From positions 682,001-746,000 of the forward strand of contig NZ_AP027055.1 in NCBI RefSeq assembly GCF_027924905.1: a stretch of DNA of 64,000 nucleotides, read 5' to 3'. A model generated the notes under the pieces. That model saw only the letters and a list, made by a program, of their open reading frames with translations. It had not been told where the DNA came from and did no database searches. The DNA is from Limnohabitans sp. INBF002 (GTDB lineage Bacteria > Pseudomonadota > Gammaproteobacteria > Burkholderiales > Burkholderiaceae_C). How positions within the stretch are numbered: the first letter of the stretch is position 1; each line of letters opens with the position of its first letter. The translations under genes and the position numbers were made by a program. Of this stretch, positions 3,838-50,665 are shown piece after piece.

Positions 3838-5351
3838 TGTGTGGCATCGTCGGCGTTGCAAGCAACGCACCTGTGAACCAGTTGATTTATGACGCCTTGT
3901 TGCTCTTGCAGCACCGAGGCCAAGATGCCGCGGGCATCGTCACCCAGCTGGACCGTAAATTTTTCATGCACAAAGCCAAGGGCATGGTGCGTGACGTGTT
4001 CCGCACCCGCAACATGCGCGCCTTGCCTGGCAACAACGGCTTGGGCCAAGTGCGTTACCCCACCGCAGGCAATGCGTTCAGCGAAGAAGAGGCTCAGCCT
4101 TTTTACGTGAACGCGCCGTTTGGTTTGGTGCTGGTGCACAACGGCAACTTGACCAACGCGCATGCCTTGAAGGCGGAGTTGTTCTCTGAAGACCACCGCC
4201 ACATCAACACCGAGAGCGACTCTGAGGTGTTGCTCAATGTGCTGGCCCACGAGATTGACAAAGCCACGCGTGGTTTGCCGCTCAAACCTGACGATGTGTT
4301 TGAGTCGGTGCGTCGTGTGCACCGCCGCATCCAAGGTTCTTACGCCGTTATTTCGATGATTGCAGGCCACGGCTTGTTGGCGTTCCGCGACCCGTTTGGC
4401 ATTCGCCCGTTGTGCATTGGCCGTGGTGCGGATGGCACTTACATGGTGGCCAGCGAGTCGGTGGCTTTGGATGGCACGGGTCATGTGTTTGAACGCGACA
4501 TCGCGCCAGGCGAAGCTGTGTTCATTGACTTGGCTGGCAAAGCGCATTTCATGCAATGTGCCGATGCGCCGCAGCTCAAGCCCTGTATTTTTGAATACGT
4601 GTACTTGGCCCGTCCCGACTCCACAATGGATGGCATCTCTGTCTACCAAGCGCGTTTGAACTTGGGCGAGACCTTGGCCAAGCGCGTGGTGTCCATGGTG
4701 CCGCCAACCGACATTGATGTGATCATTCCGATCCCTGAATCCAGCCGCCCCAGCGCCACGCAGCTGGCGCATTTGTTGGGCGTGCCTTACCGCGAAGGTT
4801 TTGTGAAAAACCGTTACGTGGGCCGCACCTTCATCATGCCGGGCCAAGGCGTGCGCAAAAAGTCCGTGCGCCAAAAGCTCAACGTGATTGCCAGCGAATT
4901 CAAAGGCCGCAACGTGTTGTTGGTGGATGACTCCATCGTGCGCGGCACCACCAGCAAAGAGATTGTGCAAATGGCGCGTGATGCCGGTGCACGCAAGGTC
5001 TACTTGGCCAGCGCTGCGCCGCCTGTGCGCTTTCCTAACGTCTACGGCATCGACATGCCCACGCCAGAAGAGTTGGTGGCGCACAACCGCACCATCGACG
5101 AAGTGCGCCAACTCATCGGCTGCGATGCCTTGATTTACCAAGACGTCGATGCCATGAAGCAAGCCGTGCGTGCAGCCACTGCTGGCGATGCGCCCAAGCT
5201 CGACGGCTTTGACGCCTCATGCTTTGACGGCGTGTACGTGACCGGCGATGTGTCTGCGGGCGACATCGTGCGCTTGAATGAAAAACGTGTGGGCACCGAA
5301 GAGGGCGCTGAAGACAACTCGCGCCTCGCCTTGCCCAACCCCTCGGAGTGA
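3837..5351 (+). CDS. purF: Amidophosphoribosyltransferase
   Basis: The 504-residue enzyme makes 5-phosphoribosylamine from PRPP and glutamine, the first committed step of purine synthesis. It begins MCGIVGVAS, so the N-terminal nucleophile cysteine is exposed after removal of Met; the glutaminase domain continues with [12 protein letters not shown]. The C-terminal phosphoribosyltransferase domain carries the PRPP loop [14 protein letters not shown] at about residue 360. Length matches the family. Its start overlaps the cvpA stop by one base, and it leads directly into metZ. Confidence 0.97.
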
Positions 5352-48729: not shown

Positions 48730-49770
48730 ATGTTTTCAACTGCAATCGCAGGCAGCTTGCCCAAACCCGAATGGTTGGCCGAGACCCACAAGCTCTGGCC
48801 TAAGTGGCAAGCCGAGGGGGACGCGCTTTTGCAAGCCAAAGCCGACGCCACGCTGCTGTGGATCAAGGCACAAGAAGATGCGGGCTTGGATGTGATTGGC
48901 GACGGCGAGCAATCGCGCCAACACTTTGTGCATGGCTTTTTGGAGCAGGTCGAAGGCATCGACTTTGAGAACAAAGTCACCATGGGCATTCGCAACAACC
49001 GTTATGACGCGCAAGTGCCGCAAGTGATTGCGCCTTTGAAGTTGAAAGGCCGTGTGCATGCGTTTGAAGCGCAGTTGGCCCGCGCCCACACGAAGAAAAA
49101 ACTCAAGTTCACCTTGCCCGGCCCCATGACCATCGTCGACACCGTGGCCGACCGTTTCTACGGCAAGGGCAAAGACCCCGTGCAAGGCCGCATCGACATG
49201 GCATTTGCCTTTGCCGAATTGCTCAACCAAGAAGCCTTGGCCCTGCAAGCTGACGGCGTGGACATCATTCAGTTTGACGAACCCGCGTTCAACGTGTACC
49301 TCGACGAGGCCGCAGACTGGGGTGTCAAAGCGCTAGAGCGCGCCGCGCAAGGTTTGACCTGCACCACCGCCGTTCACATTTGTTACGGCTACGGCATCGA
49401 GGCCAACAACAACTGGAAGAAGACCTTGGGCGACGAGTGGCGTCAATACGAAAAAGTGTTGCCAGCTTTGGCCAAGAGCAGCATCCAGCAAGTGAGCCTC
49501 GAGTGTTACCACTCACATGTGCCGCCTGAGATGATGGCGTTGCTGGAAGGCAAAGACGTGATGGTGGGGGTGATTGATGTGGCCAGCGATGTGATTGAAA
49601 CGCCGGAGCAAATTGCCGACACGATTGGCATGGCTTTGAAGTACGTGCCTAAGAACCGTTTGATTGCTTGCACCAACTGTGGTTTGGCGCCGATGAGCCG
49701 TGAGGTGGCGGTGAAGAAGCTGGAGGCTTTGGCGGCTGGGGCTGCGTTGGCTCGTACGCGTTACGCTTGA
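48730..49770 (+). CDS. mesD: MesD-like methionine synthase (MetE C-terminal domain only)
   Basis: The 346-residue protein corresponds to the C-terminal catalytic half of MetE. AGSLPKPEWLAE is the start, GDGEQSRQHFVHGF binds homocysteine, and the zinc ligands are in TAVHICYGYG (His and Cys), SLECYHSH (Glu) and CTNCGLAP (Cys). There is no folate-binding N-terminal half. GVDIIQFDEPAFNVYLDEA and TLGDEWRQYE strongly resemble the folate-independent synthase MesD of aerobic bacteria, which normally works with a DUF1852 partner (MesX). No DUF1852 gene is adjacent here; an LLM flavin oxidoreductase is. Confidence 0.75.
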   Translation: MFSTAIAGSLPKPEWLAETHKLWPKWQAEGDALLQAKADATLLWIKAQEDAGLDVIGDGEQSRQHFVHGFLEQVEGIDFENKVTMGIRNNRYDAQVPQVIAPLKLKGRVHAFEAQLARAHTKKKLKFTLPGPMTIVDTVADRFYGKGKDPVQGRIDMAFAFAELLNQEALALQADGVDIIQFDEPAFNVYLDEAADWGVKALERAAQGLTCTTAVHICYGYGIEANNNWKKTLGDEWRQYEKVLPALAKSSIQQVSLECYHSHVPPEMMALLEGKDVMVGVIDVASDVIETPEQIADTIGMALKYVPKNRLIACTNCGLAPMSREVAVKKLEALAAGAALARTRYA

Positions 49771-49795
49771 GCTTCTTTGCTTTTGCTCGGGAGGC

Positions 49796-49891
49796 GAGGG
49801 GTTTGGGCACCTGTTTACACTCATGTCCCCCGATTCAGGCAAAGCCTGAATCTCCTCCTTGACTTCGCTACAACAGATACCCAAACCCCTC
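49796..49891 (-). repeat. 96-bp structured repeat, copy A
   Basis: The segment folds as a 20-bp outer stem (49796-49815 with 49872-49891), joining strands of 16 and 19 bases, and a 9-bp apical stem GATTCAGGC/GCCTGAATC with an AAA loop. It is the inverted partner of 50005-50100: joining strands match at 15 of 16 and 18 of 19 positions, while stem sequences differ but remain paired. Read on the reverse strand, two C-A mismatches of the outer stem become G-U pairs, which suggests RNA from that strand. The region 49771-50146 holds this pair, a 113-bp spacer and no credible gene. Confidence 0.75.
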
Positions 49892-50004
49892 TCGTCGCGC
49901 ACGAAGATGCTTGCTTGCTTGCCTTCGGCTTTGCAAGCTTTAAAAGTCACGGCTTTGTAACCAAGGTCTCTGCGGCAAGCATTCGCACGCAAACCCAAAG
50001 GCTC

Positions 50005-50100
50005 ATGCAGCTTGGGTGTCTTGTGAAGCGAAGTCAAGGAGGAGAGAGGCGCACAGCGCCTCTCGGGGGACATGAGCGTAACAAGGCGCCCAAGTTGCAT
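50005..50100 (+). repeat. 96-bp structured repeat, copy B
   Basis: Same segment lengths as copy A (20-19-9-3-9-16-20). The outer stem pairs 50005-50024 with 50081-50100 including three G-U pairs; the apical stem is GAGAGGCGC/GCGCCTCTC with an ACA loop. Joining strands are GAAGCGAAGTCAAGGAGGA (50025-50043) and GGGGGACATGAGCGTA (50065-50080); the latter contains an ATG after a G-run that can mimic a translation start. Confidence 0.75.
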
Positions 50101-50146
50101 GGGCCGTCTCAAGCCAAAGAGGCAACAGAGCGAACTAAAAGGCCAG

Positions 50147-50665
50147 TTAAGCGCACCCACCATCACCACAGCTACCGCTGCCGTGAATCTCATCTTCAGG
50201 CAAAGCCTCAGGCGCAGTGACGATGCCAGTCACAGCGTCATAGCCCACACGGCGCAGATGCAAGGCCAAAGCCGCATCCATGGTTTGGGCGTGTTGAGGG
50301 AACCAAATGCCCAGCTCGTGTGCCATTTGGCGCATCACGGCCATGTCGCCTTTTTCGCGGCCACGGCGCAAGCCTTCGCGCATGACTTCTAACACCACGT
50401 TGTGTTGCATGGTGTGGCAGTTGCTGGATGAAAACTTGGTGTCTTTCATCCACTTGTCTTCACCACCAAAGTGGTCTTCGGTGTGTTCAATCAACGCTGC
50501 GAAGCGCTCAGCCAAGGTGTCGTCGTCAGCCAGTTCTGTCGCGGCCAGCAGGTCGACAAACTCACGGTGCGTGTCGTCCATGAAGTCCAGCTCTAAGGAC
50601 AAAGCGTCAGACCAAGCGAGGGTGACTTCGCGGGTGGGCAATGTGGCGGTGAGTGTGTCGGACAT
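50147..50665 (-). CDS. Hemerythrin-domain protein
   Basis: The 172-residue protein is a four-helix hemerythrin: DFMDDTHREFVDLL, LIEHTEDHFGGEDKWM, NCHTMQHNVVLEVM and WFPQHAQTMDAAL supply the His/Glu/Asp ligands of the di-iron site. It binds oxygen or senses oxygen, iron or nitric oxide in the cytoplasm. The C-terminus HGSGSCGDGGCA carries two extra cysteines in a flexible tail. The ATG at 50665 is used; the frame opens eight codons earlier. It is not close enough to another gene to suggest an operon. Confidence 0.88.
   Translation of the reverse strand: MSDTLTATLPTREVTLAWSDALSLELDFMDDTHREFVDLLAATELADDDTLAERFAALIEHTEDHFGGEDKWMKDTKFSSSNCHTMQHNVVLEVMREGLRRGREKGDMAVMRQMAHELGIWFPQHAQTMDAALALHLRRVGYDAVTGIVTAPEALPEDEIHGSGSCGDGGCA

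Follow-up and report, generated by a model that had tools for sequence, protein, structure and literature searches.

A paired-hairpin unit between convergent genes of Limnohabitans belongs to a widespread, apparently undescribed family of structured repeats

Two inverted hairpins between convergent genes of Limnohabitans sp. INBF002 form the two arms of a single unit rather than having inserted independently, and this unit belongs to a real and widespread family of paired structured repeats that is apparently unnamed and undescribed. We tentatively favour the explanation that the ~300-bp unit of this dispersed paired-hairpin family is a non-autonomous mobile element in the style of REPIN/BIME, moved in trans, an explanation that in our estimation falls a little short of probable.

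The window, i.e. the whole stretch of DNA that was analysed, comprises 64,000 nt of contig NZ_AP027055.1 (positions 682,001-746,000, forward strand). Both arms were delimited by predicted folding, by a covariance model and by same-arm relatives, and their internal boundaries are those of the fold. Arm A (49796-49891, 96 nt) is read on the - strand; its outer stem pairs 49872-49891 with 49796-49815, its core strands are 49853-49871 and 49816-49831, and its apical stem pairs 49844-49852 with 49832-49840 around a loop at 49841-49843. Arm B (50005-50100, 96 nt) is read on the + strand, with an outer stem of 50005-50024 paired with 50081-50100, core strands at 50025-50043 and 50065-50080, and an apical stem of 50044-50052 paired with 50056-50064 around a loop at 50053-50055. 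The poorly conserved spacer between them (49892-50004) is 113 bp here. To the left, the stop codon of a Meth_synt_2 gene (PF01717; 48730-49770, + strand) lies 25 bp ahead of arm A; to the right, a hemerythrin-domain gene (PF01814; 50147-50689, - strand), convergent with the left gene, ends 46 bp past arm B. A sequence-only reading of this DNA had described two inverted 96-bp copies with segment lengths of 20-19-9-3-9-16-20; both were located exactly where it had placed them, and the predicted folds of both agree with these lengths on the strands that it had chosen. The folds are very stable (arm A -53.8 kcal/mol, z -9.3; arm B -56.6 kcal/mol, z -8.5), being equalled by 0 of 200 shuffles in either case, and the arms score 110.7 bits (A) and 111.9 bits (B) with the covariance model, of which both copies are part. 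An identical 14-mer is shared by the apical hairpin of arm A (49834-49847) and the hemerythrin gene (50195-50208).

The covariance model was built from 11 copies of the same genus, in which 98.7% of cells were paired, compared with 79.0% after shuffling and 31.5-44.8% when the pairing partners were slid. A larger alignment (A2) comprises the top 150 of 173 matches; it was fitted to the model and so leans towards the model's structure, and its rows include related loci and are not independent. Within these best 150 of 173 copies, changes on both sides were found at 29 of 29 stem pairs, and 97.0% of cells were paired (60.4% shuffled; 35-43% slid), so the pairing that had been noticed in the two window copies is kept in other copies too. 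The stem pairs included 271 G-T cells and 23 A-C cells, and therefore selection acts on one strand, as a fold. This bears out, on a much larger set, the earlier observation that the same outer-stem positions are C-A mismatches on one strand and G-U pairs on the other.

The two strands between the stems, which the sequence-only reading had called joining strands and had found to be nearly identical between the copies, match at 18/19 and 15/16 positions in the aligned rows. Their name is misleading because much of both strands is base-paired: they form a further helix, in which 133-150 of the 150 rows have standard pairs at the A2 columns 24-88, 25-87, 29-83, 30-81 and 31-80. Between these standard pairs lie tandem G-A pairs (131/150 and 136/150 rows), replaced by Watson-Crick or wobble pairs in 16 and 12 of the 150 rows; such a core context would be favourable to sheared G-A pairing, in DNA as in RNA. 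The majority core of the best 150 of 173 copies reads AGCGAAGTMAAGGAGGAG ... CGGGGGACATGAGCG, and the bases of GGGGGACATG/AAGGAGGA, for which a likeness to a translation start had been suggested earlier, are core positions, some of which covary. In the purine stretch (GGAGG or GGGGG) the odd letters swap jointly, i.e. an A-G pair becomes G-A: G occurs at column 37 in 9 A2 rows, always together with A at column 77, and A occurs at column 77 in 11 rows, 9 of which are those with G at column 37 (Fisher p = 6.6e-13, with non-independent rows and kinship uncorrected). Each of the eight positions flanking this swap is G in 147 or more of the 150 rows. With GG-N-GG standing opposite GG-N-GG, the hairpin might contain a two-tier quadruplex.

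The covariance model was used to search related genomes, as the sequence-only reading had proposed, and matched 168 of 399 genomes of the same family (73 of 141 genera), many genomes having at least ~10 matches; in searches of this size the filters lose weak matches. Further out the distribution is patchy, with matches in 13 of 300 genomes sampled from the order (5 from the same family and 8 from two others) and 4 of 369 sampled from the class (2 from the same family and 2 from one other). Within its own genome the window's unit was the only match to a sequence search, and the covariance model gave one further significant match, ~4 kb outside the window (E 9e-8). The exact core pattern occurred in at least 119 stretches of genome contigs. 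In a set of 16 genomes it was present 0-16 times per genome (a lower bound), and the reversed control pattern 0 times. The 80 matches listed by name include many Comamonadaceae and other Burkholderiales, some Rhodocyclales, and Luteimonas and Pseudoxanthomonas, which we take to be Xanthomonadaceae. Contigs titled Bacillus subtilis SK7B5 (L112 and L120) also carry the element and are possibly mislabelled or contaminated. Matches were found in 3 of 72,556 plasmid records, all three with arms by the covariance model; one copy lies between catechol-operon genes of a Burkholderia anthina plasmid. A phage origin was considered and rejected: viral contigs held just 1 exact core-pattern match, and a phage collection gave nothing beyond 19-22 bp matches at E = 4. 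No Rfam 15 family reached its gathering threshold over window positions 49700-50200 (best sub-threshold E 0.45), and the 2 Rfam matches in 20 other loci both lie away from the element, so the earlier impression that it matches no known element stands for the stretches searched. In the parts of the open literature covered by our search, no description of the element was found.

Arms were counted as model hits filtered by the core motif plus motif hits, a procedure that misses partners with decayed cores, and the loci were gathered by close-match searches, which biases them to well-kept copies. Among 143 non-redundant close arm pairs 138 were head to head (-,+), the others being (+,-) in 2 cases, (++) in 2 and (--) in 1. 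The spacer had a median of 54 bp over the 138 doublets and measured 50-59 bp in 76 of them; locus L187 departs from the usual 50-60 bp with a 282-bp spacer that contains short tandem repeats. A further 86 arms had no recognised partner, of which 24 lie near a contig or locus end, and some have a decayed partner (e.g. L301). At L139 a variant element (691-1069 and 3858-4240, ~2.8 kb apart) lies inside a longer inverted repeat, whose arms measure 265 and 76 bp and are 95% complementary.

The doublets lie behind stop codons. With genes called from codon usage rather than taken from annotation, 108 doublets had genes on both sides, i.e. 40 convergent, 60 co-directional, 6 divergent and 2 overlapping a gene, while 774 other gene neighbours at the same loci were convergent in 106 cases, co-directional in 537 and divergent in 131. 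Doublets were thus enriched between convergent genes (40/106 vs 106/774, p = 1.4e-8) and rare between divergent ones (6/106 vs 131/774, p = 0.0015), the doublets being non-redundant and the background including redundant loci. The median distance from stop codon to doublet was 43 nt.

This position raises the alternative that the unit is kept by the host as an RNA-level 3'-end element, the doublet being a two-way terminator, processing or stability element for both convergent genes, whose transcripts would each read one antisense arm and then one sense arm. We consider this possible but doubtful. The convergent enrichment and divergent rarity, the short distance past the stop codon and the G-T bias on the sense strand all argue for it, as does the better conservation of the core than of the spacer at an orthologous site: at the window's locus in five relatives the core strands are 0.80-1.00 identical and the spacer 0.30-0.73, which suggests post-insertion selection or arm-to-arm conversion more than debris alone. 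The coding gene there is 0.85-0.92 identical, so that the core does no better than coding sequence, and a position behind genes is also expected of tolerated insertions. Against a sense-strand function, the sense arm of doublets between co-directional genes was not significantly better conserved than the antisense arm (better in 26, worse in 18 and tied in 16 of 60, p = 0.18), and a preference of lone arms between such genes for one strand was rejected (14 sense, 17 antisense). Neither of the window's two arms is followed by a T-run, i.e. a U-tract in the transcript, as an intrinsic terminator would be. DNA-level mobility and RNA-level 3'-end function are both possible.

The strong covariation and the conserved internal core would also suit a ribozyme or other structured non-coding RNA that is transcribed from its own promoter. 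We regard this as unlikely, in view of the missing Rfam match in the window and the 20 other loci and of the strict head-to-head doublets at gene 3' ends, rare between divergent genes, an arrangement atypical of sRNA genes.

Comparison of the arms with one another revealed that hairpins can be exchanged between them. The two arms of L156 have cores without any difference over 48 bp, whereas its apparent orthologue, the unit at L083, carries two different hairpins, and at L187 both arms have one shared apical hairpin. A complete change of the apical hairpin can therefore, judging from these sequences, come from a whole-hairpin swap between arms. It had been noted earlier that, between the window's arms, both partners are changed in five of the nine apical pairs; the count is correct, but the changes need not be five compensatory events, because such a swap is possible. 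Changes within one kind of arm were examined in copies of the same arm, where five outer-stem pairs change on both sides in each arm set (alignments A5, with 9 of 16 rows confirmed at the window's locus and one insertion that misplaces an apical pair, and A6, with 7 of 17). That all compensatory changes are a neutral by-product of palindrome template switching and hairpin exchange between arms is very improbable: the exchange of cores and hairpins at L156 and L187 speaks for it, but palindrome correction would be expected to erase the mismatched core, and neither the 271 G-T against 23 A-C cells nor the A-G to G-A swap would be explained.

We return to the non-autonomous mobile element. Units of one genome were compared in 107 best alignments, 48 of which have their two limits within 25 bp of the unit ends; of the remaining 59, 34 end further inside, 23 extend 26-100 bp outward and 2 are larger duplications. 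Copies within one genome are old, with a median identity of 77%. An empty site was found in genome G251, which lacks the unit where the congeneric G383 has one, with flanks 90-91% identical. Seven sites without a recognised counterpart were queried between these two genomes, giving 4 unit-sized gaps, 1 empty site, 1 lone arm and 1 unclear case; where the flanks are separated by a gap of about unit size (4/7 sites) the site is therefore probably filled, and one of the four gaps is backed by a covariance-model match. G251 also has a different ~30-bp repeat with more than 40 matches in the genome (query positions ~1430-1479). Three relatives (L189-L191) have no unit at the locus of the window, where just 11-24 bp separate the aligned ends of the two flanking genes; other relatives keep both arms or one, and in L186 arm B is largely deleted. 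By eye no target-site duplication was seen at this one locus. Cargo between the arms was considered for 8.5-kb and 4.8-kb intervals in L217 and L067 and rejected, because each locus holds two doublets far apart and the intervals are not inside one doublet. In a single case (L156:6475-7410) an Mrr-type restriction endonuclease gene (PF04471, PF14338) does lie inside a doublet; its apparent orthologue at L083 has a spacer of just 96 bp, and the locus is probably the same as that of two arms 1.3 kb apart in G319.

As to what might move the unit, the sequence-only reading had suggested looking for a RAYT-type or other transposase in genomes with many copies. PF01797 (Y1_Tnp) was present in 292 of the 399 family genomes, mostly once among the matches listed, and its presence was independent of the element (126/168 genomes with the element, 166/231 without; Fisher p = 0.49, for the whole Y1_Tnp family and with kinship uncorrected, so that RAYT subgroups may behave otherwise); 25 of the 75 genomes with seven or more element matches had no Y1_Tnp match. 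RAYT was therefore rejected as a general mobiliser, and the mechanism described for REPs in passages of PMC2817692 and PMC3116915 is unsupported here as a general explanation, a link to a subgroup still being possible. The earlier proposal of a mobile or regulatory structured element thus holds in part: the element is repeated across many family genomes, selected on a single strand (G-T bias) and probably mobile; a general RAYT link is unsupported. In G251 two IS110-family copies (transposase PF01548 + PF02371; L334 ~1410-2594 and L332 ~1234-2418) lie at the identical core point of arm A in two unlike doublets; the two copies could stem from separate insertions or from a single one that recombination spread. 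Given this identical position, the element looks like a landing site for IS110-family IS. Passages of PMC11187229 report that ISPa11 targets REP sequences and that IS1111 members target attC sites.

Sequence comparison shows that the arms form doublets, that selection acts on a single strand, that the doublets lie behind genes and are repeated as whole units, and that orthologous sites may be filled or empty; from this we infer a non-autonomous mobile element of REPIN/BIME style. Each arm is a ~96-nt imperfect hairpin whose outer and apical stems vary in sequence but stay paired and whose purine-rich core is conserved and non-canonical, and two unlike arms stand head to head (-,+) across a short spacer. 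An arm exposed as a single-stranded hairpin would have its core recognised by a trans-acting transposase or recombinase, as a rule other than RAYT/Y1, and units would persist mainly behind stop codons, because, we propose, neither promoters nor reading frames are disturbed there. Counted against mobility are that no mobiliser was found, with Y1_Tnp unassociated, that the copies are old, and that 59 of the 107 alignments end inside the unit or run outside it. A bolder version, that this is a new selfish or domesticated class of paired elements with a non-Watson-Crick core, a possible quadruplex and a non-RAYT enzyme that recognises the folded single strand, is speculative and in our view rather unlikely.

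The family adds to the interspersed repeats an apparently undescribed, widespread and structured member with unusually strong covariation, including a swapping purine-purine pair and tandem G-A pairs replaced by Watson-Crick pairs. The lack of a general RAYT link raises the question of which enzyme, if any, moves it, and its position between convergent genes offers straightforward tests of 3'-end function and of single-strand recognition.

Several known systems share features with the family. Like integron attC sites, it has a single-strand-selected imperfect hairpin with conserved non-paired parts, and it serves as an apparent landing site for the IS110 family as some attC sites do for IS1111 members; unlike them it forms head-to-head doublets, and the loci that were read showed no obvious cassette array. 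Across the best 150 of 173 copies, no GTT/AAC core-site triplet is conspicuous by its conservation. MITEs likewise are short non-coding units of fairly constant length with inverted ends and, as here, an empty site, but the two ends of our unit are unlike in sequence and each is a complete hairpin; a parent IS was not found, nor was a target duplication seen by eye at the single locus examined for it. The GTAG/CGTC REP superfamilies are also palindromes that form head-to-head dimers; their stems, according to passages of PMC3733652, are 5-13 bp, whereas those here are 20 + 9 bp, and neither tag is present in the core consensus of the best 150 of 173 copies. The closest likeness is to REPIN/BIME-1, and two defining REPIN/BIME features failed as tested here: presence did not correlate with a cognate RAYT (whole Y1_Tnp family, 399 genomes, p = 0.49), whereas REPIN/BIME-1 are RAYT-mobilised, and in place of short 20-40 bp REPs with a GTAG-type tag there are ~96-nt two-stem arms with a conserved non-canonical core. 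Exact-pattern counts also differ, at 0-16 per genome (16 genomes, lower bound) against the usual > 100. In organisation the family is like REPIN/BIME: its repeated unit is an extragenic inverted doublet with a short spacer (138/143 close pairs (-,+)), paired with compensatory changes and present in several copies in many genomes, alongside lone arms.
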